DNA of 64,000 nucleotides from Treponema sp. Its GTDB lineage: Bacteria; Spirochaetota; Spirochaetia; Treponematales; Breznakiellaceae. Shown one piece after another: positions 5,668 through 42,543 of this stretch. A model generated the notes under the pieces. That model was given only the letters and a program-made list of their open reading frames with translations, did no database searches and was not told the DNA's origin. Position 1 is the stretch's first letter, and each line of letters starts with the position of its first letter. The position numbers and the translations under genes are program-made. The DNA lies in assembly GCA_009785215.1 (NCBI GenBank), contig WQWU01000003.1, positions 17,680-81,679 of the forward strand, in the 5' to 3' direction.

Positions 5668-8199
5668 ATGAAATTTAGAGTTTTTGCTTTATTATTGTTC
5701 CTGCCGGCAGTTTTTGCTTTTTCGCAGGATACAGATAATGCTGATGATTGGTTTCAGGGAAAGCCAATCAGGGATATTGTATTTTCCGGGCTTAAAAATA
5801 TATCTCCGTCGGAACTGGACGGATTGATGCAGCCTTTTAAAGGACGCGCCTTTAACGACAGTATTTTCTGGGAAATAACGGGAAGGCTGTATGCGCTTGA
5901 ATATTTTGATAGTATTGAATCTTCCACTCACCGCGCGAATCAGGCAGGCACAGAGGTAGTAATAAGATTTACCGTCTCAGAAAGACCCGTAATAGGAAGA
6001 ATTAGCTTTGTTGGAAATTCAGGCATAAGACGTCATGAATTGATGGATGTTATCATTTCCAAAGTAAGCGATGTTTATAATCTTGCAAAAGTCCGCATTG
6101 ATACAGAAGCAATTATAAACAAATATCTGGAAAAAGGTTATCCCAATGCTACTGTTACAACAACTGAAATACAATCAAGTGACACATCTATTTCGCTGAT
6201 TTTTAACATTGACGAAGGCGATAAAATAACCATATCAAGAATTGAGTTTCAGGGGAATAACAGATTTACAAATAACGCCCTAAGAGGCCAGCTTTCGTTA
6301 AAAGCAAAATCGCTTCTTAATGACGGCGCTTTTCAGGAAGCGAAACTTTTGGCGGACAGGGAAGCCATAACAAGATATTATCATGATCGCGGATACATTG
6401 ACATGTTTATCCGGGACGTAATCCAGACTGCGGAAAGTGATGATAAAGGAACCAATATGGTTCTTGTCTTCATGATAGAAGAAGGCAATGAATTTAAATT
6501 TGACGGCATAACATTTGAGGGCAATGTTATTTTTAAAACAGAACAGCTTCAAAAACTTGTATATTCCAAAGTAGGCGATATCGTTAACATGACGCGTCTT
6601 GAAATGGATATGCAGCGCGTTGCCGACCTTTATTTTGAAAACGGATATATTTTTAATTTAATAACAAGAACTCAGAATAAGGATGATCATAATCTTACGC
6701 TTTCTTACGCGGTTCATATCGTGGAAAGAAGCCGCGCATACATAGAAAATGTAATAATAATTGGTAATGAAAAGACAAAAACCAATGTTATTTTAAGGGA
6801 AATCCCCCTGGAACCCGGAGATGTTTTTTCCAAAACCAAAGTCATGGAAGCCATGAGAAATCTTTTTAACCTTCAGTATTTTTCCATGATAATTCCGGAT
6901 ACACTTCCTGGCAGCACAGAAAACATGATGGATTTGGTTTTTACCTTTGAAGAACAGGCTACTACAGACATTCAGTTTGGACTTACATTCTCCGGCAGCG
7001 CAGACCCTGACTCTTTTCCAATATCAGGGTTATTCAAATGGCATGACAGAAATTTCTTTGGAACCGGAAATGAACTTGGAGCGGAATTAAATTCATCCAT
7101 CGTTGACTCAACTTCGTTTTCATTAAATTATCTGCATCGCTGGGTATTCGGTCTTCCTCTTTCTCTTGGCATCGATTTTACCTTTAACCATACAATACGT
7201 CTTGCATTAATGAATAATCAGTCTCCGTTATTTTTCGGCAATGAAGATTATGCTTTCCCGGACGGATTCAAATCTTATGAAGAGTTCAGGGCAAGAAACT
7301 ATACTCCTACAAGAGATTTCCTTATGGATTACAGAAATTTCTATTTATCCGTAGGGTTTTCTACAGGTTACCGCTGGTCAACGTTCATGGGGATTTTGGG
7401 AATCAGCGGAGGAGTGCGTTTTGGATGGGAAATGAATGAATATGACGCAGACCTCTACAGACCCTTTGATCCTGTTTTAAGAGCGGGAAACAATTCATGG
7501 ATGCCAAGAAATTCATTCTGGCTTACATTTACGCTAGATCAGCGTGATATTTTCTATGATCCAAGCAGGGGTTTTTATTTATACGACCGCATAGCTTTCT
7601 TTGGCTTTTTGGACAGCGAACGTGAACATTTTATGCGCAATGATTTAAAAGTGCAGTATTATCATACATTGTTTAATTTTCAAATAACAGATAAATGGAG
7701 CTTTAAATGCGTATTGGCAATGCACGCAGGATTGTCAATGATATTCAATCAGCCGTTCAGAGGCGATCCTTTACAGCCGGATATCTCCCGCCAGAATATG
7801 CTTTCGATAGACGGTATGTTTATAGGAAGAGGCTGGAATGAATTCAACGACAAAGGATACGTGCTTTTTGAAAGCTGGGTAGAGCTGCGCTTCCCGATAG
7901 TTTACGGCATTTTGGCTTTGGATTTATTTTTTGACTCAGCTGCGAAAGAAGAAAAAGCAGGCTCTTATTTTGGACGTAACATAGAAGGAAGACCTAATTT
8001 TACAATCGAGAGATTTAGGTTTAGTTTCGGCGGCGGATTAAGATTTACAATACCTCAATTCCCAATCCGTTTAAGCCTTGCTAAAGGTTTCACAATTGAA
8101 GACGGCAATATAGTATGGAAAACCGGCAGTATATTTAATAGTGCCAATACGCCCGGTAAGGGACTGGATCTTGTAGTTTCATTTGCAATATCATATTAG
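5668..8199 (+). CDS. bamA: Outer membrane protein assembly factor BamA (POTRA + Omp85 barrel)
   Basis: 843 aa, signal peptide, POTRA repeats, C-terminal barrel. Confidence 0.92.
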   Translation: MKFRVFALLLFLPAVFAFSQDTDNADDWFQGKPIRDIVFSGLKNISPSELDGLMQPFKGRAFNDSIFWEITGRLYALEYFDSIESSTHRANQAGTEVVIRFTVSERPVIGRISFVGNSGIRRHELMDVIISKVSDVYNLAKVRIDTEAIINKYLEKGYPNATVTTTEIQSSDTSISLIFNIDEGDKITISRIEFQGNNRFTNNALRGQLSLKAKSLLNDGAFQEAKLLADREAITRYYHDRGYIDMFIRDVIQTAESDDKGTNMVLVFMIEEGNEFKFDGITFEGNVIFKTEQLQKLVYSKVGDIVNMTRLEMDMQRVADLYFENGYIFNLITRTQNKDDHNLTLSYAVHIVERSRAYIENVIIIGNEKTKTNVILREIPLEPGDVFSKTKVMEAMRNLFNLQYFSMIIPDTLPGSTENMMDLVFTFEEQATTDIQFGLTFSGSADPDSFPISGLFKWHDRNFFGTGNELGAELNSSIVDSTSFSLNYLHRWVFGLPLSLGIDFTFNHTIRLALMNNQSPLFFGNEDYAFPDGFKSYEEFRARNYTPTRDFLMDYRNFYLSVGFSTGYRWSTFMGILGISGGVRFGWEMNEYDADLYRPFDPVLRAGNNSWMPRNSFWLTFTLDQRDIFYDPSRGFYLYDRIAFFGFLDSEREHFMRNDLKVQYYHTLFNFQITDKWSFKCVLAMHAGLSMIFNQPFRGDPLQPDISRQNMLSIDGMFIGRGWNEFNDKGYVLFESWVELRFPIVYGILALDLFFDSAAKEEKAGSYFGRNIEGRPNFTIERFRFSFGGGLRFTIPQFPIRLSLAKGFTIEDGNIVWKTGSIFNSANTPGKGLDLVVSFAISY

Positions 8200-8207
8200 G
8201 AGTTGTT

Positions 8208-8738
8208 ATGTTTAAGCGTGTTTTATTGTTATTTTTAATTGTTTTTTCATGCGCAGGATTTGCTTTTTCCCAGCAAATAACAAGGTTTGCGGTAGTAGAC
8301 ATGCCGCGTGTTTATAACGCGTTTTTCCGTGAATCAAGGGCTGTAAGAGAATACGAAGAACGTCATGCGAGAGTTTTAAGTGATATTCAAAGATATACGC
8401 AGGAAATACAGGCACTAAGAGGAAGGCACGCGGAAGCTGTATTGCAGGATAATCAGTCTGAAGCTCTAAGGCTGGAAAGCCAGATTACAAGAAGAACAGA
8501 ATTCTTAAGAGAATTTCATCAGATAAGAATTGCGGAACTTGAAGAACAAAGAAATCGCCTGATGCAATCATCTTCGTATTGGACACAATTACAGGAAGAA
8601 ATAAGATTTTTTGCGGAAAGCGAAGGATACAGTATGGTTTTGAATTTAAAAGATAATCCAAGCATTATTTGGTACAGCCATACTGTAGATATAACGGATA
8701 AATTGATTCAAAGCATGCAATCAAGATCAAGAAATTAG
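8208..8738 (+). CDS. skp: OmpH/Skp family periplasmic chaperone
   Basis: Signal peptide, coiled coil, position after bamA. Confidence 0.85.
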   Translation: MFKRVLLLFLIVFSCAGFAFSQQITRFAVVDMPRVYNAFFRESRAVREYEERHARVLSDIQRYTQEIQALRGRHAEAVLQDNQSEALRLESQITRRTEFLREFHQIRIAELEEQRNRLMQSSSYWTQLQEEIRFFAESEGYSMVLNLKDNPSIIWYSHTVDITDKLIQSMQSRSRN

Positions 8739-8741
8739 AAC

Positions 8742-11444
8742 ATGGATGTCTGCGCGTCAAAAACAAGCCCAATGCTGGAACAGTACAGACGCATCAAAAA
8801 AGAGCAGCAGGGAAATGTTCTGTTCTTCAGGCTTGGAGATTTTTATGAAATGTTCGGCGAAGATGCCGTAGAAATTTCCGCGCTTCTTAATTTAACTCTT
8901 ACAAGCCGCAACGGAGTCCCCATGTGCGGCGTTCCGTATCATGCCGCAAAAACCTATGTTTCAAGACTTTTAAAACTTGGAAAAAAAATCGCGATTTGCG
9001 AACAGCTTACAGGACCAGGCAAGGGAACAAAAGTTATAGAGCGCGATGTTGTAGAAATAATAACTCCCGGCACAACTGTAGATGAAGATTTCCTGGAAAA
9101 AGGAAGCGCAAATTATCTTGGATGCCTTGCCGCTGCAAATACACAGCTTTCTTTTTCTTATATAGACCTTTCAACAGGGGATTTTTTTTCTACCTGTTTT
9201 AAAAAAGACGAAGTTCAGGGGAGCCATCCTTTGCTTCGCCAGGAATTTGAACGCTTGGCTATTAAAGAAATATTAATTCAGGAATCTCTTCTGGAAGACA
9301 ATAATATTGCACTGGCTGTCTATGACAGAAGCGGTCTTGTTTTAAACCGCTGGGCAGATTGGCTTTTTGATTTTTCTTCGGCAAAAACCAGGCTGGAAAA
9401 ACAATTTGGACTTTCTAATTTAAAAAGTTTCGGCTTACAGGAAGGCAGCGGGGAAATAATCTCGGCGGGAACTTTACTTGACTATCTTGATACAACATCA
9501 AAAAGCCTTTTGCCTCACATAAGAAGCATTAAATTATACCGGGATAATGAATATCTGGGACTTGATGAATCGAGCCAGCGTAATCTTGAACTTTTATACA
9601 ATCAAAGAGACGGAGATGTTCGTTTTTCGCTTTTTGAAACAATGGATGAAACGCGCTGTTCAATGGGAAAGCGCCTTTTAAAAAGACGTATCCTTCATCC
9701 GCTGCGTGATTTATCCAAAATTAACAACCGCCTTGATATGACAGAAAAACTATACCGCGAACAGGGTAAACTCGGAAAGTTACGTGAAATATTCGGCAAA
9801 ACACCGGATCTGGAAAGATTATGTTCAAGACTTGCCATGGATAAAGCGCACGGACGTGATATGCTTGCCGTAAAAATAGCAATTAACAATTATCTTTTAA
9901 TATGCGAAGAATTTAAAGACAGCAATTTTTGCTTTGAAAACGAAGAGGTTATGGAAAACCCCGAGGCACTTTTAGTGCTTGAAGATTTGCTTGAAAAGGG
10001 TATCAGCAATGAGCCGTCTGTTGTATTAAACGAAGGAAATTTAATAAAAGAAGGATACAGCGAAGAGCTGGACGGGTTGCGCTCCATGAGAGACAACAGC
10101 AGACAGATACTGGAAGATTATCTTGAAGAAGAAAAGCAGGCAACAGGAATACCAAGCCTTAAGATACGTTACAATCGTTTAATCGGCTATTATTTTGAAG
10201 TAACAAAGGTCAATCTTTCCCGTGTTCCCAAACATTTTATCAGAAGACAAGGAATAGCCGGCGGTGAGCGTTATTCTACAGATCGTCTTGCGGAACTTGA
10301 GTCGGAAATTAATGGAGCGTCAGACAGGGTAGTAGAGCTGGAAAGAAAACTTTTTATACAAATCAGAGATGAGGCAAAAAAACACCTGCCTCTCCTTTCA
10401 TCGGCTGCCCGCCGCCTTGCACAACTGGATGTAGCCCAGTCTTTGGCAAAAGCTGCTACGCTAAGAAGCTGGACGCGCCCGTTATTGAACGATAGCGGCA
10501 ATATGGAAATTTATGAAGGACGCCACCCCGTTGTAGAGGCGCATCTTAACAGAGGCGAATATATCCCCAATGACATTTTGCTGACAGACGACGGAATTTC
10601 CTTCGCGATGATAACAGGTCCCAACATGGCAGGAAAATCAACTTATCTGCGCTCTGCCGCCCTGATTACGATAATGGCTCAGATGGGAAGTTTTGTGCCG
10701 GCAAGGGAGGCGCACATAGGACTTTGCGACCGTATTTACTGCAGGGTAGGTGCATCTGACAATCTGGCTCGCGGAGAATCAACTTTCCTTGTAGAAATGA
10801 ATGAGACGGCGTTTATTTTAAATACGGCTACAAAAAAGAGCCTTGTTATCATGGACGAAGTGGGCAGGGGAACCGGCACTAACGACGGACTTTCGATAGC
10901 ATGGGCTGTAAGTGAAGAACTGCTTAACAGGGTTAAGTGCAGAACGCTTTTTGCCACGCATTTTCATGAACTTTCGCTATTGTCTAATCCGCGCATGGCA
11001 AACCGCTCCATGGAAGTTCTGGAACAGGGAGAAAAAATAATCTTTCTTAGAAAATTAAAAGAGGGGCCAACAGAGGAATCTTACGGAATACATGTAGCGC
11101 GTCTTGCAGGTCTTTCACAGGAAGTTTTACAGAGAGCAGGGCAAATTATGCGTCTTTTAAAAGAACGCGATTCAGATTTACGCGGCACTTTTGGCGGAAA
11201 AGAAGATGTTAACCGCTTTATTCCAGAGGTTAACAAAGAAGATAATAAGCCTGATAAATTTGAAATACTGCTTAAAGAAATTGATCCGCAAATCATGACA
11301 CCTATGGAAGCGCTTAATATCCTGTCCCAGTGGAAAAAACTATCACAATCAGGGATAGATATTTCTGCCTCGAATTTAACAAAACAAAAAACCAAGACTT
11401 CCAAGCCAAAAAACAACGAAAATTCTCCCTCTTTATTCGATTAA
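8742..11444 (+). CDS. mutS: DNA mismatch repair protein MutS
   Basis: SPMLEQYRRIKKEQ...LFFRLGDFYEMF; TGPNMAGKSTYLR Walker A; DEVGRGTGTNDG. Confidence 0.97.
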   Translation: MDVCASKTSPMLEQYRRIKKEQQGNVLFFRLGDFYEMFGEDAVEISALLNLTLTSRNGVPMCGVPYHAAKTYVSRLLKLGKKIAICEQLTGPGKGTKVIERDVVEIITPGTTVDEDFLEKGSANYLGCLAAANTQLSFSYIDLSTGDFFSTCFKKDEVQGSHPLLRQEFERLAIKEILIQESLLEDNNIALAVYDRSGLVLNRWADWLFDFSSAKTRLEKQFGLSNLKSFGLQEGSGEIISAGTLLDYLDTTSKSLLPHIRSIKLYRDNEYLGLDESSQRNLELLYNQRDGDVRFSLFETMDETRCSMGKRLLKRRILHPLRDLSKINNRLDMTEKLYREQGKLGKLREIFGKTPDLERLCSRLAMDKAHGRDMLAVKIAINNYLLICEEFKDSNFCFENEEVMENPEALLVLEDLLEKGISNEPSVVLNEGNLIKEGYSEELDGLRSMRDNSRQILEDYLEEEKQATGIPSLKIRYNRLIGYYFEVTKVNLSRVPKHFIRRQGIAGGERYSTDRLAELESEINGASDRVVELERKLFIQIRDEAKKHLPLLSSAARRLAQLDVAQSLAKAATLRSWTRPLLNDSGNMEIYEGRHPVVEAHLNRGEYIPNDILLTDDGISFAMITGPNMAGKSTYLRSAALITIMAQMGSFVPAREAHIGLCDRIYCRVGASDNLARGESTFLVEMNETAFILNTATKKSLVIMDEVGRGTGTNDGLSIAWAVSEELLNRVKCRTLFATHFHELSLLSNPRMANRSMEVLEQGEKIIFLRKLKEGPTEESYGIHVARLAGLSQEVLQRAGQIMRLLKERDSDLRGTFGGKEDVNRFIPEVNKEDNKPDKFEILLKEIDPQIMTPMEALNILSQWKKLSQSGIDISASNLTKQKTKTSKPKNNENSPSLFD

Positions 11445-11491
11445 TATTCCCATTTCCTGAAATTCATTGTATAATGTAACCGGAGGAAAAA

Positions 11492-12790
11492 ATGTCAAAT
11501 AACGAAATTTTAAAACCGCAGGACAGACCCAGTATCGGAAAATGGATCCCTTTATCGTTTCAGCATGTTTTTGCAATGTTTGGAGCGACAATTCTGGTTC
11601 CGCTTTTAACGGGATTAAGCCCTGCAACAGCGCTTTTTACAGCAGGTACAGGAACAATGCTGTTCATCCTTTGTACAGGCGCAAAAGTACCGGCCTTTTT
11701 AGGTTCATCATTCAGCTTTATAGCGCCGTTGATTGGCGTATCGGCTGCTTACGGTCTTTCATACGCGCTTGGCGGCGCGATAGTGGCGGGATTATTCTAT
11801 TGTCTTATCGCGACTATAATTCGCTTTACAGGTACAGGATGGCTTGACCGTGTAATGCCGCCTGTAGTTATCGGCTCTGTAATCGTGGTAATCGGTCTCT
11901 ACCTGGCTCCTGTCGCAATGAACATGGCATCACGCGTTAACCCCAATGATCCGGGTACATACAGTCTTGTATTCCTTTCCATTGCTGCGGTAACCCTTTG
12001 TGTAACAATCGTATCCAATATTTTTCTCAAAGGTTTCTTCAGCGCCATTCCCATATTGATAGGGCTTATTGCAGGCTATATTTTTACGCTTCTTATGGGT
12101 TTGGTGTTTCCAGCCTACGCGATTATAGATTTTCAAATTGTAAAAGACGCGGCATGGTTTGGCTTCCCGAAATTCCACGTACCCAGTTTTAACATTGTTC
12201 CCATTATAATTTTCGTAATTGTTTCACTTGCTACTATCTGCGAACATTTGGGAGACATGGTTGTAACAAGTAAAATTGTAGGTCAGGATTTCTACAAAAA
12301 TCCCGGGCTTCACCGCACACTTATCGGAGACGGTATTGCCACAACCTGGGCGGCTATCTGGGGCGGACCTCCCAATACCACTTACAGCGAAAATGTCGGC
12401 GTAATGGCTATTACCCGCGTTTACTCGGTTTGGGTAATAGGAGGAGCGGCTGTAATCGCTGTCTTCCTTTCGTTCTTTACAAAATTCGGCGCGATTATTC
12501 AAACTATTCCTACACCGGTTCTGGGCGGCGTATCCATTCTGCTCTTCGGAATTATTGCATCCAGCGGCCTTCGCACAATCGTAGAAAGCGGCGTAGATTA
12601 CAAAGACAAACGTAACCTGATAATTACCTCTGTAATTCTTGTTATCGGTATCGGCGGCGGAAAACTGGCATTTAAAATCGCGCAGGATATAAACGGCGAC
12701 CCGATTATGTTTGAACTTGCAGGTATTGCGCTTGCAACAGTTGTGGGGATTATACTTAACCTTGTGATTCCTGTGACCAAAAAAGACTAG
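11492..12790 (+). CDS. uraA: NCS2 family uracil/xanthine permease (UraA-like)
   Basis: QHVFAMFGATILVPLLTGLSPATALF; membrane protein of 432 aa. Confidence 0.88.
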   Translation: MSNNEILKPQDRPSIGKWIPLSFQHVFAMFGATILVPLLTGLSPATALFTAGTGTMLFILCTGAKVPAFLGSSFSFIAPLIGVSAAYGLSYALGGAIVAGLFYCLIATIIRFTGTGWLDRVMPPVVIGSVIVVIGLYLAPVAMNMASRVNPNDPGTYSLVFLSIAAVTLCVTIVSNIFLKGFFSAIPILIGLIAGYIFTLLMGLVFPAYAIIDFQIVKDAAWFGFPKFHVPSFNIVPIIIFVIVSLATICEHLGDMVVTSKIVGQDFYKNPGLHRTLIGDGIATTWAAIWGGPPNTTYSENVGVMAITRVYSVWVIGGAAVIAVFLSFFTKFGAIIQTIPTPVLGGVSILLFGIIASSGLRTIVESGVDYKDKRNLIITSVILVIGIGGGKLAFKIAQDINGDPIMFELAGIALATVVGIILNLVIPVTKKD

Positions 12791-31050: not shown

Positions 31051-31731
31051 ATGCAAAACGAAAAAACGAGCCAGGAGAAAGACAATTTTTTAGGGAAAAT
31101 CAATGACTTTATTCAAAGGAACAGAAAACCTATTTTCGCTGTGACAGGCATTATAGTTTTCCTGTTTGTGGGAGCTGTCGTATTTCTTGCTGTAAATGAC
31201 AGTTTAAACAAGAAAGCTATCATTAAAGCAGAAGAATTCAACACCAGATACGAATATCTGACAGAAAATTTTGATGACGAAGATTTTAAAGATGATATTA
31301 ATGGTTTTATAAACGACATAGCGGCATTTGCAGGCAGAAAAAAGGGAGTAGCCTACAGTAAAGCATGGTCTTTGGCTGCCGATCTTCACACAAGGAATAA
31401 AGACTGGCAAAACTCGCAGGAAGCCTGGGTTAACGCGGCACGCGCGGGAGATAATTATTTAGCGCCTATCGCATTTTTTAATGCGGCGGCTGCCGCAGAA
31501 GAGCAGGGGAATATCGAGCAGGCAATTGATTTATTAAAACAGTGCCTCTCCCTTAAGGTTGAGTTTCCCGCGGCTCCAAGAGCGCAGTTTTCCGTAGGAA
31601 GGCTCTATGAACAGCTTGGCGATTTTCCGCAGGCTTTGGAAGCATACAGGGAAGTAATGATTAATTGGCCTGAAATACCTGTATGGCACCAGCTTGCCCG
31701 CAGCAGAATTATCGCAATTGAGATTCAATGA
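31051..31731 (+). CDS. TPR-containing membrane-anchored protein
   Basis: N-terminal TM; TPR-like AQFSVGRLYEQLGDFPQALEAYREVMINWP. Confidence 0.7.
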   Translation: MQNEKTSQEKDNFLGKINDFIQRNRKPIFAVTGIIVFLFVGAVVFLAVNDSLNKKAIIKAEEFNTRYEYLTENFDDEDFKDDINGFINDIAAFAGRKKGVAYSKAWSLAADLHTRNKDWQNSQEAWVNAARAGDNYLAPIAFFNAAAAAEEQGNIEQAIDLLKQCLSLKVEFPAAPRAQFSVGRLYEQLGDFPQALEAYREVMINWPEIPVWHQLARSRIIAIEIQ

Positions 31732-32471
31732 AAATAATAAGGGGGTTACCCCCATTGCTGCTGTATATTTTATTCGCGCTTTTATCCTGCGGAATAGAAG
31801 AGTATTATTATCTTCCGCAGGATGTTGATATAAGAAAAGAATTGAATACAGCAGCAGTCCTGGAAATCGAGCCCATTACTGAACGCTATGCTACAGGTTT
31901 TACCATTTTTTACAGGATATATATTACAAACGCGTTTCTTAGCGGAGTTGAAATAAATACAGAAAATCTGATGCGTGATATCAGCGCTTCGCTTTTTAAT
32001 GATTTTAGGGATTTAACCCCGTTTGCAGACCCTGCAAATAACACATCCATAACAACAGAGAATACATTTAAAAACCGTAATTACCATGAACTGGAACTTG
32101 AAGGAATAGATATAAAAACAGTTTTTAAAACAACAGGCGGCACCTTCAGGATTAATTTTCAGGACAGAGCCGGCACAGAACCTTTTTTATCCTATGACGA
32201 TGCGGGCACAGAAAGAGTATATTTTTTATTAAGAAATAACGGAGGCGGCGTTTTTACACCAGAACCTGAAGACCGTTATTTTTTCTACACACCCGAACTT
32301 ACATCAACCGAAACAGACGTTAACAACGACGTTATCCGCCGCAGCGACAATGCAGACGGATACGCCTATGTTTCAATGTACATAGTAGCCATCGGGCAAA
32401 ACCCCGATACCTTCCAGCGTATCCTCAGCAAACCCACCCACATCAACATTTTTAAATTACCGGACAATTAA
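31728..32471 (+). CDS. Hypothetical lipoprotein
   Basis: Lipobox-like LFALLSCGIEE. Confidence 0.6.
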   Translation: MKIIRGLPPLLLYILFALLSCGIEEYYYLPQDVDIRKELNTAAVLEIEPITERYATGFTIFYRIYITNAFLSGVEINTENLMRDISASLFNDFRDLTPFADPANNTSITTENTFKNRNYHELELEGIDIKTVFKTTGGTFRINFQDRAGTEPFLSYDDAGTERVYFLLRNNGGGVFTPEPEDRYFFYTPELTSTETDVNNDVIRRSDNADGYAYVSMYIVAIGQNPDTFQRILSKPTHINIFKLPDN

Positions 32472-32515: not shown

Positions 32516-32543
32516 ACTGTGTATAATGTTTATTCTGTCTACT
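32516..32543 (+). other. dif: Candidate chromosomal dif site (attL): ACTGTGTATAA-TGTTTA-TTCTGTCTACT
   Basis: 11-6-11 architecture; spacer differs from E. coli TGTATA by one base; arms resemble known dif arms; located at the coding-strand switch and phage integration point. Confidence 0.75.
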
Positions 32544-32560
32544 AGGAAATAGGGGTTTTA
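32525..32560 (+). repeat. Left copy of 36-bp direct repeat (attL core)
   Basis: AATGTTTATTCTGTCTACTAGGAAATAGGGGTTTTA, identical to 36999-37034. Confidence 0.97.
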
Positions 32561-32588
32561 CCCCTATTTCGGACCCCCCGTCAGGGGG
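32546..32588. other. Two adjacent hairpins next to the att core
   Basis: GAAATAGGGG-TTTTA-CCCCTATTTC (perfect 10-bp stem) followed by CCCCC-GTCA-GGGGG. Confidence 0.85.
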
Positions 32589-32615
32589 AAATCAAAGTAG
32601 ATAGGAGAGACAAAA

Positions 32616-32846
32616 ATGCAAATTTACGCTATTTATGACACGATTGCTCAGGAATTAGGACCTATTTTTGAGGCAAAAAACGACGAAGTTGCTCGTCGCC
32701 AGGCGATATATTCACTTGGAAAACAAAACGTTAACCCTAAGGAATTTTGGGTTTACAGATTAGGCGAAATTATTCGCAATGATGACAAGTTTGAGATCCG
32801 TGGTTTATCACCGGAGAAATTAGAGGTTAACTATGAAACGGCGTAG
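32616..32846 (+). CDS. Gokushovirus VP5-like small nonstructural protein
   Basis: QIYAIYDTIAQELGPIFEAKNDEVARRQ resembles the 'YDSKAE..PF' N-terminus of gokushovirus VP5. Confidence 0.75.
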   Translation: MQIYAIYDTIAQELGPIFEAKNDEVARRQAIYSLGKQNVNPKEFWVYRLGEIIRNDDKFEIRGLSPEKLEVNYETA

Positions 32847-34494
32847 GAATGCGCCGTTCCGGCATGTTGGCGCTGTAAGAGCTCCAAAAACAGCTTTTAA
32901 TTTAAGTTATGAAAAAGTATTCACTTGTGACATGGGACAGCTGATCCCTGTATTATGTGATGAAGCTTTACCTGGTGATGTTTGGCATATGTCAAACGAG
33001 ATTGTAGCAAGATTACAACCGTTGGTAGCTCCAATATTACATGAGATAAATATATTCACTCATACATTCTTCGTACCGTATCGCCTCCTCTGGGAAGATT
33101 GGGAACAATTTATTACAGGCGGCGAAGATGGAGAATTTGTAGAACCTGAACCAAGATGGGAGCCATCCAGATATATAGGTCAACATGGTCCTGAATGTGC
33201 AGTTCAAAATAAATTGTGGGACTTTATGGGTTTACCTGTAACTAGAGTTTCAGGAGTACCCGGAGTTGGAGCGTTAGGTTATATTTATTTAGCAAATTGG
33301 ACCAAAAATTGCAGTCCGCTTATATATCCCAAAAGAGCATATAACTTAATATTTAACGAGTATTACAGAGATCAGAATTTACAGGATGAAGTAGAAATTG
33401 ACCAGGAGGAAATATTATTTCGTAATTGGGAAAAAGATTATTTTACTTCTGCCTTGCCCTGGCAACAAAAAGGCACTGCTCCATCGCTTCCTATATCAGG
33501 GCTTCTTGATTTAGTTTATGCAAGTAGTGGAAATATTGCGGGAGATTTGAAAGTATATGTTAATAGATTAACAAATACATATCCACCTCCATTACAACCG
33601 GATATGGAAAATTTAACTTTATTAGGAGATCAAGACGGAAATTTAGTATTCGGTGATAATGCATATGCACCACCAAATAGTAGATGGTGGATTGAAGGCG
33701 CAACAACTTTAGGTGGAATAAAAGCAGATATGTCTAAAGCTGTATCTTTCGACATATCAGATCTAAGGAATGCTTTTCAAATTCAAAAATGGCTTGAAAG
33801 AAATGCAAGAGCTGGATCTCGCTATACAGAATTTTTAAAGGCACACTTCCCTGCTTACCCACGTGATGAAAGATTACAACGTCCGGAATATATTGGCGGT
33901 TCAAAAGCACCTATAATTGTCTCAGAAGTATTACAAACGTCAAGATCGGATCCAAATCAAACACCTCAAGGTACAATGGCAGGACACGGAATTAGTGCGG
34001 CACGTACACGTATAGGAAAATACAGAGTCCAAGAACATGGTTTAATAATGACATTAATGTCAATAATGCCTAAAGCATCGTATCAACAAGGTATAAATCG
34101 ACAGTGGTTAAGATATGATAAATTAGATCATCCGTTTATAGAATTTGTAAATTTAAGTGAACAAAAAGTATTACGAGGAGAAATATATACTTCATCTATT
34201 GATGCAGATAATACATCTACATTTGGTTATCAAGGACAATATGACGAGCTGCGTGTAAAGAATAACATAGTATGTTCAGAAATGCGTGATACATTTGCCT
34301 ATTGGCATATAGGCAGAAAGTTCAGTAACCCGCCTCATCTTAATGAAATATTTATTTCAACAAAAAATACGATAAGAAAAGACATATTTGCAGTACCGAG
34401 TAGACCTGGATTTATAATATCTTATGGGAATGTAGTAACAGCAATGAGACCAATACCCTATATGTCTGAACCTGGTTTAATAGATCATAATTAG
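32833..34494 (+). CDS. Microvirus major capsid protein VP1 (F-type)
   Basis: FNLSYEKVFTCDMGQLIPVLCDEALPGDVWHMSNEIVARLQPLVAPILHEINIFTHTFFVPYRLLW is characteristic of gokushovirus VP1. Confidence 0.96.
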   Translation: MKRRRNAPFRHVGAVRAPKTAFNLSYEKVFTCDMGQLIPVLCDEALPGDVWHMSNEIVARLQPLVAPILHEINIFTHTFFVPYRLLWEDWEQFITGGEDGEFVEPEPRWEPSRYIGQHGPECAVQNKLWDFMGLPVTRVSGVPGVGALGYIYLANWTKNCSPLIYPKRAYNLIFNEYYRDQNLQDEVEIDQEEILFRNWEKDYFTSALPWQQKGTAPSLPISGLLDLVYASSGNIAGDLKVYVNRLTNTYPPPLQPDMENLTLLGDQDGNLVFGDNAYAPPNSRWWIEGATTLGGIKADMSKAVSFDISDLRNAFQIQKWLERNARAGSRYTEFLKAHFPAYPRDERLQRPEYIGGSKAPIIVSEVLQTSRSDPNQTPQGTMAGHGISAARTRIGKYRVQEHGLIMTLMSIMPKASYQQGINRQWLRYDKLDHPFIEFVNLSEQKVLRGEIYTSSIDADNTSTFGYQGQYDELRVKNNIVCSEMRDTFAYWHIGRKFSNPPHLNEIFISTKNTIRKDIFAVPSRPGFIISYGNVVTAMRPIPYMSEPGLIDHN

Positions 34495-34503
34495 GAGAAA
34501 AAA

Positions 34504-34848
34504 ATGGAAAAAAACAAAAAACCAAAAATACAAAATCAGTTGGAATATGATGGTCCTGAAGAAGCTGAAATGTCGGATATAGATGAAGTGGAAACCGCGG
34601 GATACAGGACAAACAAACAACAGATTGAATCGTTAATTGAATCAGGACGTCGCCTTGAAAATTTCAGGAGAGATATGTATGACGCTGATTACGATGATGA
34701 CGGAGATGACTTCGCTGAAGACATAAATGAAGCGAGATTTAAAAGGCGATATAGATCATTTTTAGAAAAAGAAAATGAAAAATCACAGGAGCCAAAAAAA
34801 CAGGCTCCTACTGAAGCGACAGCGCCATCAGAAGAGCCGAAGGCGTAA
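34504..34848 (+). CDS. Microvirus internal scaffolding protein VP3 (B-type)
   Basis: Position between VP1 and VP2, size, acidic composition. Confidence 0.72.
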   Translation: MEKNKKPKIQNQLEYDGPEEAEMSDIDEVETAGYRTNKQQIESLIESGRRLENFRRDMYDADYDDDGDDFAEDINEARFKRRYRSFLEKENEKSQEPKKQAPTEATAPSEEPKA

Positions 34849-34954: not shown

Positions 34955-35821
34955 ATGAGTGTATTTGCGGCAGTAGCTGCCATAATTGGATCCGTAATTG
35001 CTGCCGGCGTAGGTATTGCCGGCATATCAAGCTCAAATAGAGTTGCAAGACAAAACTTAGATTTCCAGCAGTCAACATTTGATTATATGCAGGATATGCA
35101 AAGAGAAACTTGGAACAGAGAAGACACATCTATAGCCAGGAGAGTGCAAGATTTAGAAGCAGCAGGAATGAGCCCTGTATTGGCGGCTGGTCAAGGTGCA
35201 CAGTCCAGCTCGCCTGTACGTGTAGAAGCTCCACAAAGAGAAAATAATAAAATAGATCAAGCTGAATTAGTTATTAATGCACTAAGGATGAAAGCAGACT
35301 ATAGTATGACAATGGCACAAAAAAGACTATTGGATACAGAGAGACAAGAAATAGAACAAAGAATGGCGCATAACAAAGAAATGCACCCTGAAGAATTAGC
35401 AAGGAAAGTCATGGAAAATGATTATACGAGAAAAACATTTACTACAAGAGTAAATAAAGCTATTGCAGAATTAAATGGTATGCAAACGGAAAACCGGCAA
35501 AGATTATTAGAATTTAATTTGGATAAAGAATATATGAATCAAGAGAGATTGTTAAAGTTAACTTTAATGGAACTGAATTTATCAAAAGGAGATGCTGAAC
35601 TGGTAGCAAAAAAACTATTAATTGAAGCTCAGAGACATGACTTAAATATTTGGAAATTGTTAGGATTACCAACTAATACAACATTTGGAAGTAGTCTAAC
35701 AGATCAAGGAATGAAACTTGGTCTTCGACGAAGTAATAGTGAAGGTGGCAAATCTAGTACATATCAAAATACTACTAAAGGAAGAAATAGATTATTTGAC
35801 TTATTTGGAAGTCATCATTAA
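34955..35821 (+). CDS. Microvirus DNA pilot/minor capsid protein VP2 (H-type)
   Basis: Gly/Ala-rich hydrophobic N-terminus; RVQDLEAAGMSPVLAAGQGAQSSSP motif typical of VP2. Confidence 0.92.
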   Translation: MSVFAAVAAIIGSVIAAGVGIAGISSSNRVARQNLDFQQSTFDYMQDMQRETWNREDTSIARRVQDLEAAGMSPVLAAGQGAQSSSPVRVEAPQRENNKIDQAELVINALRMKADYSMTMAQKRLLDTERQEIEQRMAHNKEMHPEELARKVMENDYTRKTFTTRVNKAIAELNGMQTENRQRLLEFNLDKEYMNQERLLKLTLMELNLSKGDAELVAKKLLIEAQRHDLNIWKLLGLPTNTTFGSSLTDQGMKLGLRRSNSEGGKSSTYQNTTKGRNRLFDLFGSHH

Positions 35822-35946: not shown

Positions 35947-36068
35947 AATTTAAAAATAAAAAATGGAAGTATATTCCAGGATGGTTAAAAAATCTTCAAA
36001 AGAGAAGATGGAAAAACAGATCAAGACCTAACAGAATAAAAGGATATAAATATAGAAGGAAGAGATAA
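35943..36068 (+). CDS. 41-aa basic, Trp-containing protein, not in ORF track
   Basis: GTG start overlapping the previous stop (GTGA); VKFKNKKWKYIPGWLKNLQKRRWKNRSRPNRIKGYKYRRKR*; its TAA overlaps the ATG of rep. Confidence 0.6.
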   Translation: MKFKNKKWKYIPGWLKNLQKRRWKNRSRPNRIKGYKYRRKR

Positions 36069-36943
36069 TGCAATGCTCTTTTCCTAGAACTATAAAGATC
36101 AAAAAGCCTGCTCATGCAATATTTGAATTTAAAACAGGTGTCTATAAGTCACCAGATATAGGATATGGATATATGAAAGTACCATGTGGAAAATGTATGA
36201 ATTGTAGGATATCGAGAGCCCGTGAATGGGCAACTAGACTATTGCACGAATTGGATGCTTGGCAAGGTAAAGGATTATTTGTTACACTTACTTATGATGA
36301 AGAATTTCTGCCTCCCGGAGGATCCCTGGACAAAAAAGAATTACAGAGATTTTTCAAAAGATTAAGGAGAGATTTAAATGGCGAAAGAATCAAATACTTT
36401 GCTAGCGGTGAGTATGGTGATACTAGCAACCGTGCTCATTATCATGCTATTGTTTATTATAGTTGTTGCAGTAACGACATCAAACATAGTATCAAAAGGT
36501 GCTGGCCTCTAGGTCATATTAAATTTGGCACGGTTACATATGATTCATGCCGATATGTTGCCGGCTATATAACAAAAAAATTAAATGGTCCGGCCGGCGA
36601 AGCCCATTATAATGGCCGCACTCCCCCATTCCAATTACAAAGCCAAGGAATAGGTCTGGAATGGGCAGAAAAAAATAAAAAATATTTACAAAATAAATTA
36701 GGTATAACAGTAAAAGGCGTAGAAGTTGGACTCCCCCGCTATTACGTAAAAAAACTAGATCTGAATGTAAAAAAAATAAAAGAAGAATCTATAAAAAGAC
36801 AAAAATGCTTAGATGAAAAAATTATAGATAAATACGGCGAAACAAAATACAGTAACGCGATGATAAAATCAAATGAACAACGTGAAAGAAATGTAGTTAG
36901 CCGTATGAATCTAAATGACAGAAGAAAAAGTAAAAAACTGTAA
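36068..36943 (+). CDS. Microvirus replication initiation protein VP4 (HUH endonuclease)
   Basis: VPCGKCMNCRISRAREWATRLLHEL; FVTLTYDEEFLP; RAHYHAIVYY HUH motif; YVAGYITKKL. Confidence 0.96.
   Translation: MQCSFPRTIKIKKPAHAIFEFKTGVYKSPDIGYGYMKVPCGKCMNCRISRAREWATRLLHELDAWQGKGLFVTLTYDEEFLPPGGSLDKKELQRFFKRLRRDLNGERIKYFASGEYGDTSNRAHYHAIVYYSCCSNDIKHSIKRCWPLGHIKFGTVTYDSCRYVAGYITKKLNGPAGEAHYNGRTPPFQLQSQGIGLEWAEKNKKYLQNKLGITVKGVEVGLPRYYVKKLDLNVKKIKEESIKRQKCLDEKIIDKYGETKYSNAMIKSNEQRERNVVSRMNLNDRRKSKKL
36378..36512 (+). CDS. Candidate overlapping 44-aa single-TM protein (possible lysis gene) in the +1 frame of rep
   Basis: AAGGAG, 8-nt spacer, ATG; MAKESNTLLAVSMVILATVLIIMLLFIIVVAVTTSNIVSKGAGL*. Confidence 0.45.
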   Translation: MAKESNTLLAVSMVILATVLIIMLLFIIVVAVTTSNIVSKGAGL

Positions 36944-36998
36944 AATACAAAAAATAGTATGTTTATTTATAAAGATGCCAGTTGACACCTAGCCTATC

Positions 36999-37034
36999 AA
37001 TGTTTATTCTGTCTACTAGGAAATAGGGGTTTTA
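36999..37034 (+). repeat. Right copy of 36-bp direct repeat (attR core)
   Basis: Identical to 32525-32560. Confidence 0.97.
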
Positions 37035-39388
37035 TATAAAGACCTATAGGCGTCAAAGTATGAAACCTGTTCACCGGATGAGTTTTTTGCAAGGACGCCG
37101 GTTCGTTTTAAATCAAAGACTGAGGCGCAATCGTTTTCCAGCCTTGACTGTCTGTATGCTTTTTCCGCTGCCGAATTAACATAATCGATATTTTCTGCGT
37201 TCTTGTAGGAATAACCCCATAACAGAGATGACAATGAATGTTTTTTTTCTCCGCTTTTAATTAAAAATATTTCGGCTCTTTTTATAATAATGCCGGAAGG
37301 CAAATTTGCATTAAGGCTTTTTACAAAACTATCAACCGATACCTCGTTTAGAAAATCGGCAATTGCCATCTCGAATTCGCCGCTTACGCCTGTTGATAAG
37401 GGAGACGCGAATTCTATTTTTGCCAGCGGGTTAAAACCTTTGGTATACATTATTGGAATGCCAGCCCGTTTAAATGACATGGAAAAAATCTCAATCAGGC
37501 TTAAATGCCCATGAAAAACAGCGCTTCCTTCCTTGCTGAAACTGAATAATACCCTGTAAATCGGCGGGTCGCTTTTGTTCGGCAATGCGGCGTTAACCGC
37601 GCTTCTTTCATGGTTAACAAGAGGCTCCTTAGTCTCTTCTTTTGCTTTTATTTCGGGCAGACAATTAACGCCGCATAAACTGCATTTTTCCCTGCATGAC
37701 GGTGTACGGGTTGTTTTTACAAACTCTTTTTTTAGATAATAATCTGTAACACAGGAATCAACACGCGACCAGGGTAATAAGTCAATTTTTCCTTCAAATA
37801 TGCCGGAAACATAATCAGAGTTTTTCTCCAGAATTTCCTGCCATTTTTCCTTGTTAATATATTCATTCCACGGCTCAAGTCTGCTGCCAAATCTAAAAGC
37901 CTCTTCGCATAATAACCCGGATCTTTCATCCCCCCTGCTTAATACCCCTTCTATTTGAGAAATAAGAAAATCTGAGATGCTTACTTTATGCCCCATTGGC
38001 TTTAACTTTGAACGGATAAAATAAAGTTTTTTTTCTGCTGTTTCGCTATTGAGCTGGGCTGCCCATTGATACGGGGTATGCGGTTTTGGAATAAAAATCC
38101 CGACATTGATATTAAAGTGCATCCTTGCCCTGCGCGAAACTTCTGTTATAAAAGAAACAATTTCGTCTTCTTCGGGAGCACCGGTATCTGTTTCCGGTAT
38201 CAAGCCTATCATAAAATAAAATTTTGCTCCTCTGTAACCGCGTTTTTTTGCCTCTTGCAGAATTTCAACAACATAATCTATGTTAACATCCTTGTTTATT
38301 GACATCTGCCATGCTTCCTGCGGTGTTTCTACAGCAAAGGTTAAGCCGCTTTTTCTTGTAACAGAAATTTTTTCAAGAAGCGACAGGGCAAAGCTTGATA
38401 CTTTAAGCGATGGCAGCTGAAAAGACACATGGTTATTGCTAAAATTTAAGTTTAATGTTTCTATTAGTTTTTCTATGCCTGTATAATCCCCTGATGAAAG
38501 CGAAGAAAGGCTAATCTCCTGCCAGCCTCCCTTTGTAACCAATTCGTTAACCTGTTCAATTATTTGTTCCTGACTTTTTTGCCTAGCAGGTCTGTACCAA
38601 AAACCGGCGTGACAAAAACGGCAGCCGTTCGGGCATCCGCGCATTATTTCTACTGTGCCGTGATTTTGAATTGTTTTCATGCTGGGAACAGGATACACTA
38701 TCGAAGGGGATTGTTTTTTACCAAAGTCTCTGTAAATTGCCCTTACTGCTTTTTCTTTTCCTCTTGTCCAAATATTAGGGTGAGAAATAATTTTTTCAAG
38801 CAGCGCTCCCCTGCTCTCCCCTTCCTTTTTTAAATTTGAAAGTTCTTCCGTTAAATCAAAAAATCCGGCTTCCGCTTCCCCTATCCAGAAAGCGTCAATG
38901 TAGGCACAATACGGCAGAGGATTTGAAACAGCGGGTCCTCCCGCGATTATTATCGGGTATAAATCATCTTTCCTCTCTTCGCATTTAAGAGGAATCCCTG
39001 ATACATCCAGCATTGTCAGTATGCCGTTAAATCCCAGCTCATATCCCAGGGTAAACATAAGAATATCAAGACTTGCAAGGCTAATTCCGGTATCAAGTCC
39101 GTAAAGAGGCAGATTATTTTCACGTAACAATTTTTCAAAATCGGGAGCCGGGGCAAACGCTCTGTCACAGCAAACATCCGCCATATTGTTCATGTAATTA
39201 TAAATAATTCTTAAAGCCTGATTCCCCATTCCAATTTCATAAAGATCCGGAAACGCTATTAGTGTTTTTAAAATTTTGTTTTTATCCGCTATACAGCCGA
39301 CTTCTCCTCCGGTATAGCGCGCCGGTTTTTCTATGTCCAATAATTTATGCCCCAATGCAAAAGCAGGATCTATGTATATTTCTCTCAA
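37016..39388 (-). CDS. Radical SAM protein (TIGR03960-like) with C-terminal DUF2344-like domain
   Basis: TVEIMRGCPNGCRFCHAGFWYRPARQKS; C-terminal YRVLFSFSKEGSAVFHGHLSLIEIFSMSFKRAGIPIMYTKGFNPLAKIEFASPLSTGVSG. Confidence 0.92.
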   Translation of the reverse strand: MREIYIDPAFALGHKLLDIEKPARYTGGEVGCIADKNKILKTLIAFPDLYEIGMGNQALRIIYNYMNNMADVCCDRAFAPAPDFEKLLRENNLPLYGLDTGISLASLDILMFTLGYELGFNGILTMLDVSGIPLKCEERKDDLYPIIIAGGPAVSNPLPYCAYIDAFWIGEAEAGFFDLTEELSNLKKEGESRGALLEKIISHPNIWTRGKEKAVRAIYRDFGKKQSPSIVYPVPSMKTIQNHGTVEIMRGCPNGCRFCHAGFWYRPARQKSQEQIIEQVNELVTKGGWQEISLSSLSSGDYTGIEKLIETLNLNFSNNHVSFQLPSLKVSSFALSLLEKISVTRKSGLTFAVETPQEAWQMSINKDVNIDYVVEILQEAKKRGYRGAKFYFMIGLIPETDTGAPEEDEIVSFITEVSRRARMHFNINVGIFIPKPHTPYQWAAQLNSETAEKKLYFIRSKLKPMGHKVSISDFLISQIEGVLSRGDERSGLLCEEAFRFGSRLEPWNEYINKEKWQEILEKNSDYVSGIFEGKIDLLPWSRVDSCVTDYYLKKEFVKTTRTPSCREKCSLCGVNCLPEIKAKEETKEPLVNHERSAVNAALPNKSDPPIYRVLFSFSKEGSAVFHGHLSLIEIFSMSFKRAGIPIMYTKGFNPLAKIEFASPLSTGVSGEFEMAIADFLNEVSVDSFVKSLNANLPSGIIIKRAEIFLIKSGEKKHSLSSLLWGYSYKNAENIDYVNSAAEKAYRQSRLENDCASVFDLKRTGVLAKNSSGEQVSYFDAYRSLYKTPIS

Positions 39389-40695
39389 CGGTTATACCTT
39401 CTTATGTAGATGCTTAAAGCAAGACCTATTCCAATCATAGAGGCAAGAATTGATGAACCTCCGTAAGACATGAACATAAGAGGAAGTCCTGTTATCGGCA
39501 TAATGCCCATAGTCATGCCAACATTAATTATAAAGTGAAATCCAATCATTCCCGAAAGACCTGCGCATATATATTTTGCAAAAGGATCCGTTGTAATTTT
39601 CATGGAAAACAAAATACGATTTACAATTAAAAGATAAAGAGAAAATACAATAATGGCTCCCAAAAAACCCGTTTCTTCAGAAAATATGGAAAAAATAAAA
39701 TCTGTGCTTTGTTCAGGCAAAAATCTATAATGACTTTGTGTTCCCTGCAAATAACCTCTGCCTGTAAGCCCGCCCGCTCCAATCGCTGTTACAGATTGAA
39801 TAATATTCCAGCCTGCTCCGCGCGGATCCACATTTGGATCCAGAAAAACAATAAGCCTCATTATCTGATAATTTTTAAGCACAATGCGCGCTACAAAAGA
39901 AGCGCCCAGTGATAATACAACTATTGCGGATGAATAAACCATCCAAAAGAAATATTTCTTTTTAAATTTAATATAGCCAAAAATGGAAATAGCGGCTATA
40001 AGAACAAAAAATAGTATTGCGATTGTAATTATTCTTATATTTGTAAGCACTGCAAGAAAGGGAATTGTTTTTCTTAAAATAAATGTTTGCCAAAGCGGAA
40101 GCACCAAAAATATTCCTGTAAGCGCTATACATGAAACCATAAATGCCACATAACGCATGGATACCCCTGCCAAAAAAATCATTGTTAAAAGAATTGCAAT
40201 ATAAACAAGCGCTGTGCCAAGATCAGGCTGAAGAAGAACTATTACCATCGGTATAAAGACTATAATACAGCTTACAAAAAAACGGGAAAATGTCCCTCTG
40301 TTATGATCTGTATCGGCAAGAAAGCGCGCAAGAAGTATAATTACAGATATTTTAACAAATTCAGACATTTGAATTCCAAATGATCCTATTCTTAACCAGC
40401 GCGCCGCATTATAAATTACATTGCCAAAAAGCAATGTATAAATAAGAGGCAGTAACGAAAAAAGATATATATACAAAGAAATGTTATAAAATCTTCTGTA
40501 ATTTATCATGGATAAGACAATTACTGCAACAAGACCTATTGATGCCCATATTATCTGCCTTACATATTCATTTGAAACCTGCACTCCTTCAGAAGTTATT
40601 CCGGAAGAATAAATAAACAATATGCCGAATACTATTAAGGTAATTACAGGAAGCAGCAGTAAATAATCTATTTCCAGTATGTTTCGTAATCTCAA
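39385..40695 (-). CDS. rodA: Rod shape-determining protein RodA (SEDS)
   Basis: SEDS multi-TM protein; LLQPDLGTALVYIAILLTMIFLAG; next to PBP2. Confidence 0.93.
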   Translation of the reverse strand: MRLRNILEIDYLLLLPVITLIVFGILFIYSSGITSEGVQVSNEYVRQIIWASIGLVAVIVLSMINYRRFYNISLYIYLFSLLPLIYTLLFGNVIYNAARWLRIGSFGIQMSEFVKISVIILLARFLADTDHNRGTFSRFFVSCIIVFIPMVIVLLQPDLGTALVYIAILLTMIFLAGVSMRYVAFMVSCIALTGIFLVLPLWQTFILRKTIPFLAVLTNIRIITIAILFFVLIAAISIFGYIKFKKKYFFWMVYSSAIVVLSLGASFVARIVLKNYQIMRLIVFLDPNVDPRGAGWNIIQSVTAIGAGGLTGRGYLQGTQSHYRFLPEQSTDFIFSIFSEETGFLGAIIVFSLYLLIVNRILFSMKITTDPFAKYICAGLSGMIGFHFIINVGMTMGIMPITGLPLMFMSYGGSSILASMIGIGLALSIYIRRYNR

Positions 40696-40710
40696 ATTTA
40701 TCTCCGCCTT

Positions 40711-42543
40711 TTAATTTGACACTATGTGCTGAAATCCCAGAGTACGGACTGCAGTTTCATAATCCTGCTTGGCAAAATACCCCTGAAATATTATTGCCGA
40801 TGCCGAAGATGCTCTCCAAACCTGAAAGCTTGATGCTTCGATAATAACTGTAACTACAATTTGCTCATCAGGATTTGTACTGTTATACGGAGCAAAGGCA
40901 GTAAACCATGAATGCCACCTGTCTACAAGCCCAATTTCCGCGGTTCCTGTTTTTCCCGCAATTTGCACTGTTCTTATATTTAACGGATACTGCGCTGTTC
41001 CATGACTTACAACGCTTCTCATATCCTGCCGTACAGTTTCAAAAATGGAATGAGGTATATCGCTTTTGTGCAAGATTTCCGGTTCTGTTATTTGTATTAT
41101 AGCGTTTGTATCAGGATCGCGAACTTCTTTTAATACATGAGGTTTATAAATCACTCCGTTATTTACAATCATGCTGACCATATTGCACATTTGAAGAGGC
41201 GTAACCAGTGTATACCCCTGCCCAATAGACATATTCATTGTATCGCCCAAAACCCATCTTTCATGAAAACGTCTTTCTTTCCATTGAGGCGTTGGAATAA
41301 AACCTGTTATTTCTCCCGGCAGATCAATTCCCGTTATTTCTCCGTAACCGTAATTTCTTGCATAGTTAACGATTCTTTCTACGCCAACATTATCTCTGCC
41401 AATCGTCATATAATAAATATTGCATGATTGCCTTAGGGCTCCCGCTAAATTTAATCTTCCGTGTCCTGTTCTAAGATGACAGTGCCAGTCCCTGTTTCCG
41501 TACCTTATAACACCCTGACATAATACATTCTGTTCAGGCGGAAATGTATTCTCTCTTAAAATTGCAGTAGACAATATCATTTTAAAAGTTGAAGCCGGAG
41601 GATAACTTGACTGAATAGCGCGGTTTAAAAACGGCTTGTTCGGATCATCTGCGAGAATTCTAAAATTGGAAATATTTCCGTCTGTAAAAATATTTGGGTC
41701 ATACCACGGATAGGAAACCATTGCAAGTATTTCCCCTGTTGATGGTTTCATAACAATGGCAGATCCTATCTGAGGACCTATCGCTTTCTCTGCAAGAAGC
41801 TGAAGGTCTGCATCTATTGTAAGTACCAGGTTTTTTCCCATCTCAGGAAGTGTTCTTATAATGTTTTCCTGCCCTGCGATACGCCTGCCCCTTGAATCTA
41901 CTGTTCTTGTTTCCCATCCTTCTTTTCCGCGCAAAAGCTCGTCATATTGCCTTTCAATACCGGATTTACCTATAACATCTCCCTGCTGATAGCCTAAATT
42001 GTAAAGTGTGGTAAGTTCATCACGGGTAATGTCTCCTACATAGCCAAGTATATGGGAAAGGCTTCCTACGTTAACATAATTGCGAATTGCCTTGATGTGC
42101 CAGGTTATACCGGGCAGCACGTCTTTTCTTTCTGCAAGAGATGCAATGGAAGAAAACGTTACGTTAGACGCAATTTCTACAGGCTGGTAAAGCTGAAAAT
42201 ACTGGCTTGGAAGTTTAGATCTTATCTCATCCTGCGAGATTCCCAATATCTGTGAAACAGAAGCAATTACTTCATCCATTTTTCCGCGCGGAACTTCCGC
42301 AGGCGTAATTGTAACTGCATAAGAATCCCTGTTAATTACAAGAGGACGCGTAATATTGCGATCGTATATTTCTCCCCTTTGCGTTGGAATAATATATGTT
42401 CTTCGTGAAATATCCTGCGCTCTTGTAAGATATATTTCACCGGAAAGTATTTGCATGCTAAAAAGCCTTATTACATAAGTAAAGACAACAATAAAAAAGA
42501 GAATCCGAAAAACAATTATGCGGCTTCCCTGATTATCAATCAT
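40711..42543 (-). CDS. mrdA: Penicillin-binding protein 2
   Basis: PPASTFKMI active site; GKTGTAE. Confidence 0.95.
   Translation of the reverse strand: MIDNQGSRIIVFRILFFIVVFTYVIRLFSMQILSGEIYLTRAQDISRRTYIIPTQRGEIYDRNITRPLVINRDSYAVTITPAEVPRGKMDEVIASVSQILGISQDEIRSKLPSQYFQLYQPVEIASNVTFSSIASLAERKDVLPGITWHIKAIRNYVNVGSLSHILGYVGDITRDELTTLYNLGYQQGDVIGKSGIERQYDELLRGKEGWETRTVDSRGRRIAGQENIIRTLPEMGKNLVLTIDADLQLLAEKAIGPQIGSAIVMKPSTGEILAMVSYPWYDPNIFTDGNISNFRILADDPNKPFLNRAIQSSYPPASTFKMILSTAILRENTFPPEQNVLCQGVIRYGNRDWHCHLRTGHGRLNLAGALRQSCNIYYMTIGRDNVGVERIVNYARNYGYGEITGIDLPGEITGFIPTPQWKERRFHERWVLGDTMNMSIGQGYTLVTPLQMCNMVSMIVNNGVIYKPHVLKEVRDPDTNAIIQITEPEILHKSDIPHSIFETVRQDMRSVVSHGTAQYPLNIRTVQIAGKTGTAEIGLVDRWHSWFTAFAPYNSTNPDEQIVVTVIIEASSFQVWRASSASAIIFQGYFAKQDYETAVRTLGFQHIVSN

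Follow-up and report, generated by a model that had tools for sequence, protein, structure and literature searches.

Probable capture of the chromosomal dif site by an integrase-free microvirus in a relative of Treponema

An integrase-free microvirus has very probably captured the chromosomal dif site of a Treponema relative through exchange in the dif spacer, leaving a full dif at attL and a half-site at attR. The host is probably of termite-gut origin, and the window analysed is a 64-kb (64,000-nucleotide) stretch of one of its contigs. Direct support exists for the element and its limits, for where dif lies and how well it is conserved, for the host recombinase genes and for the same layout in three further genomes. 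From these sequences we infer that host XerCD was the agent, that attL continues to serve in chromosome dimer resolution and that the phage is able to excise.

That microviruses become lysogens by way of XerCD was proposed in 2011 (PMC3091885) and tested in Escherichia coli in 2020, where integration required xerC, xerD and both dif arms of the phage, and deletion of either arm abolished lysogeny (PMC7062461). Such capture is already known in Enterobacteria and Bacteroidetes. A 2022 survey also saw microviruses in Spirochaetes, but took each for a lone contig within a fragmented metagenomic assembly and a possible binning error (PMC9239249). Kono et al. (2011) predicted dif in a few spirochaetes and do not name Treponema in their main text. 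We found nothing specific in the literature on Treponema dif or Treponema microviruses, an absence that is not proof of novelty.

Results

By position and conservation, the 28-mer at 32516-32543 is the host's chromosomal dif, with predicted binding of XerC and XerD. It reads ACTGTGTATAA-TGTTTA-TTCTGTCTACT on the + strand, a layout of two 11-bp arms and a 6-bp spacer that is conserved among relatives. A preliminary description had singled it out as dif-like, and its sequence, position and matches to the E. coli dif quoted there (7/11, 5/6 and 7/11) were all reproduced. A weight matrix built from 49 relatives, whose own sites range from 34.1 to 47.8 bits, gives it 36.6 bits; the second-best 28-mer in the 64 kb is attR at 0.5 bits and every other scores below 0, so the window holds no better candidate. 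Searched at ≤3 mismatches, the 1.9-Mb assembly (about 75% complete) has no other match to the 28-mer. Absence from relatives lacking the phage would have told against the site; its core TAATGTNNATTCTGTCTACY (≤1 mismatch) is present there in single copy. Across the family, 137 of 203 genomes have the core, as do 40 of the 46 good ones, nearly always once; the reversed core pattern is found in 3 genomes only. Five genomes (G013, G020, G110, G131 and G157) have 2 or 3 core matches each, on different contigs and in part at contig ends; these may be other dif-integrated elements or contamination.

The site lies opposite the replication origin and at the GC-skew switch, the first measured in relatives and the second in the window's contig. 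Cumulative skew of that contig, with the phage removed, peaks at window position 32010, 506 bp from the single dif copy, as the preliminary description had anticipated for a true dif. The distance from dif to dnaA is 46-51% of the chromosome in four single-contig relatives (genome sizes rounded):

G055: dif opposite dnaA, 1.57 of 3.2 Mb
G185: dif opposite dnaA, 1.90 of 4.1 Mb
G183: dif opposite dnaA, 1.99 of 3.9 Mb
G053: dif 2.24 Mb from dnaA, of 4.6 Mb

Genes flanking dif are conserved beside it in most relatives. The two host genes next to the site in the window are:

31728..32471, + strand: gene for an unnamed 247-aa protein on the XerC side of dif, kept there in most relatives of the genus (tblastn)
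37016..39388, − strand: on the XerD side, a radical SAM gene (TIGR03960/TIGR03936) whose final codons fall within the attR copy of the repeat

The radical SAM gene adjoins dif in G039 and G124 too, followed by rodA and a penicillin-binding protein gene (compare window 37016-42543; L119; L157); in G124, dif is inverted relative to that gene. Because rodA directly adjoins dif even in G497, from another family, this terminus neighbourhood is old.

The insert is a 4,474-bp microvirus without integrase, bounded by exact 36-bp repeats. Its genes are all on the + strand:

32616..32846: VP5-like protein, 76 aa (PF20577 Phage_ORF5, E 2.1e-6; PHROG 1670, DNA binding protein)
32833..34494: major capsid protein, 553 aa (PF02305 Phage_F, E 2e-93; PHROG 514)
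34504..34848: 114-aa open reading frame with no family match, in the VP3 scaffold position (putative role from gene order)
34955..35821: pilot protein for DNA ejection, VP2-like (PHROG 8689, E 3.7e-10)
36068..36943: rolling-circle replication initiator, VP4-like (PF23343, E 1.4e-21; PHROG 942, E 4.8e-83)

An F-type capsid, a rolling-circle replication initiator, a pilot protein and a size within 4-6 kb place the element in Microviridae. The best named matches of its capsid are unclassified microviruses at about 50% identity.

The element encodes no recombinase of its own, and the host encodes a candidate XerC/XerD pair. Family and PHROG searches found no recombinase or integrase among the element's genes, and no tyrosine recombinase is present in the 64-kb window; four are present elsewhere in the assembly. 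The xerC and xerD genes that the preliminary description proposed looking for stand in classical gene neighbourhoods on contig C18, the XerC-like gene adjoining topA and hslU and the XerD-like gene between dprA and ftsZ (neighbours named from reading of translations). In NCBIfam they match XerC and XerD best, both under the equivalog cut-offs.

Both junctions are dif-like, and the insertion falls exactly in dif. The features that define them, all on the + strand, are:

32516..32543: attL, a complete dif (host XerC arm 32516-32526, spacer 32527-32532, XerD arm 32533-32543)
36990..37017: attR, with a phage-derived degenerate XerC arm TAGCCTATCAA, the spacer and an intact XerD arm
32525..32560: left copy of the exact 36-bp repeat
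36999..37034: right copy of the repeat, at a spacing of 4474
32544..32569: phage hairpin beside the XerD arm, GAAATAGGGG TTTTA CCCCTATTTC, from sequence and predicted fold; its left arm and loop lie in the repeat

The preliminary description had the phage inserted in dif with a full site restored at attL, the XerC-side arm being host sequence and the spacer and XerD arm lying in the repeat. That account stands, with the refinement that the repeat also includes the last 2 bp of the XerC arm and 17 bp past dif. Exchange in the spacer explains the full attL and the degenerate attR alike. Only one arm of the phage att site is recognisable: by the 49-relative matrix, the XerC arm at attR scores −27.5 bits against 20.7 bits for the XerD arm.

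Spacer exchange alone does not account for the 17-bp identity beyond dif. This segment, AGGAAATAGGGGTTTTA, is identical at both junctions (32544-32560 and 37018-37034). On the phage side it forms one arm and the loop of the perfect hairpin; in the host flank it makes up the final part of the radical SAM gene, immediately past the last conserved codons (YFD-Y--LY). We lean towards a hairpin that is the phage's own and a host flank that is the scar of an earlier phage, because the radical SAM tail there differs in length and sequence between relatives and the G039 phage has a hairpin at the same place. Alternatively, the phage may have captured a host segment.

The same event recurs in other genomes, with either arm of dif. 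Microviruses also lie in dif in G039 (same genus), G124 (another genus) and G497 (another family; 235,711-bp contig), which with the window makes four genomes from two families with a microvirus inside a host contig at dif. The capsids of the window, G039 and G124 phages are 46-53% identical, which makes a single inherited insertion unlikely. Flanking repeats measure 23 bp in G039, 12 bp in G124 and 20 bp in G497. In these three, phage and dif have the XerC arm and spacer in common, and the poor phage arm is XerD; in the window, and likewise in viral contig L151, it is the spacer and XerD arm that are shared, and XerC is the poor arm. The phage genes have the same orientation as dif in the window and G039, and the opposite one in G124, G497 and L151. 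All four integrations leave one complete dif.

L151 (IMGVR_UViG_3300002449_000002) is a free microvirus contig of 4,713 bp, with a capsid identity of 45.7%. Both its ends carry a 22-bp terminal repeat equal to the dif half-site TAATGTATATTCTGTCTACTAT, as if the assembler had broken the sequence at an att site existing in free and integrated forms. It was the one true case in pattern scans of viral contigs: L150, L152 and L153 were rejected because they have one non-dif flank in common, and L154 because it is without the XerD arm. A half-site scan of 80 microvirus contigs gave no match.

Three further microvirus loci differ from these. A microvirus in G021, a Treponema sp. MAG of the same genus as the window's host (L112, G021:C16, about 7000-12140), was rejected as a dif insertion; its neighbours are rplM/rpsI on one side and a nuclease-like gene on the other, it has no clear flanking repeat, and it represents either another integration route or a misassembly. 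In L031, from an Endomicrobium sp. MAG, 17-bp direct repeats ATATATCTTATCGGACA at 5587 and 9711, 4,124 bp apart, surround a microvirus capsid gene, which may mark a comparable integration in a different phylum. In a more distantly related member of the class, a microvirus capsid gene stands near a contig end (L158, G272:C3), and no dif is recognisable by the consensus of the window's family.

Discussion

Exchange in the spacer offers a route from two sites to the observed junctions. The phage att site would have the 6-bp spacer and XerD arm in common with dif, and strands would be exchanged inside the dif spacer. The host XerC arm and phage XerD arm would then form a full dif at attL, and the phage XerC arm and host XerD arm a half-site at attR. 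One good phage arm would suffice to restore one full site, because exchange in the spacer swaps arms between attL and attR.

Capture of dif in this way is favoured by a single-copy, conserved site opposite dnaA and at the skew maximum, by its matrix score, by host XerC and XerD genes in classical neighbourhoods, by the absence of a phage recombinase, by the independent insertions in G039, G124 and G497, by the L151 half-site and by the E. coli experiments. Weighing against it are the poor phage XerC arm, whereas the E. coli phage needed both arms, the unpredicted 17-bp identity past dif, the XerC and XerD calls below equivalog cut-offs and a fragmented, incomplete host assembly. The poor arm lowers our certainty about the synapse more than about the layout, because other members of the group are reported with one variable arm.

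Several integrase-free elements provide points of comparison. The filamentous phages TLCphi, CTXphi and VGJphi of Vibrio are ssDNA phages that use XerCD at dif; no good XerD site is known in the attP of TLCphi, and CTXphi relies on a folded single strand. The window's phage is of the icosahedral kind, and its missing arm is XerC. Free microviruses of INPHARED and IMG/VR have capsids up to about 51-53% identical to that of the window's phage over its length, and L151 among them carries the half-site, but they are unattached to a host chromosome. The enterogokushovirus prophages of Enterobacteria are likewise 4.3-4.7-kb microviruses without integrase in dif; one of their junctions holds a canonical dif, the second a variable one derived from the phage (Kirchberger and Ochman 2020, PMC7062461). 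Their phage site varies in the spacer and XerD arm, whereas the phage described here has a degenerate XerC arm and a perfect XerD arm, and a spirochaete rather than an enterobacterial host. BMV proviruses of Bacteroidetes also lie between dif-like repeats without an integrase, some with second dif-like sequences, and XerCD was proposed for them (Krupovic and Forterre 2011, PMC3091885). They belong to another phylum, and draft genomes barred GC-skew analysis there, whereas the window's dif was placed by dnaA distance and skew.

How the missing XerC arm is dealt with invites a more specific proposal. Some spirochaete microviruses might capture dif with an att site of spacer and XerD arm only, the XerC site being dispensable or replaced by a folded single strand. 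We think this unlikely; if true, it would be the mirror image of known phages without a good XerD arm. A related variant of XerCD integration, to which we give a rather low probability, is that a folded single strand inserts in the manner of CTXphi, its spacer and XerD arm made duplex by downstream phage sequence:

32527..32612, + strand: possible single-strand fold, with spacer and XerD arm pairing with 32596-32612 (16/17 pairs)

On the coding-sense strand, pairing this good was matched by 4 of 20,000 shuffles, and the predicted minimum-energy DNA fold pairs the XerD arm likewise. The fold was, however, found post hoc and provides no XerC arm, and four other phages are without such pairing, which rules it out as a general feature. 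Folding of the window's phage is a lead only.

Exchange within the spacer, our preferred reading, must also be weighed against an assembly artefact, in which the assembler worked a free, circular microvirus into the host contig by way of 36 bp that it has in common with dif. An assembler word shorter than 36 could produce an identical pattern, the source assembly is fragmented and microvirus contigs in MAGs have been doubted earlier (PMC9239249). The repeats in G497, G039 and G124 are nevertheless too short for most assembler words, and the phages, found in separate genomes, are divergent; we regard an artefact as very unlikely. RecA-type or illegitimate recombination through the 36-bp identity is likewise very unlikely: the identity does extend 17 bp past dif and the phage XerC arm is poor, but elsewhere identity ends near a dif arm and spacer, is as short as 12 bp and always includes the spacer, and four insertions, each within the single 28-bp site of its genome, speak for site-specific exchange.

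Two aspects are new: well-supported Spirochaetota hosts, a link doubted by the 2022 survey, and a phage site with the XerD arm kept and the XerC arm missing, the mirror of the enterogokushoviruses. These integrations provide good evidence for Spirochaetota as microvirus hosts, an association set aside in 2022 (PMC9239249). They also define dif for a large Treponema-related family, a sequence that no paper we found gives. In all four integrations one good phage arm, whichever it is, pairs with one regenerated dif, and this makes the arm requirement of Xer capture testable.
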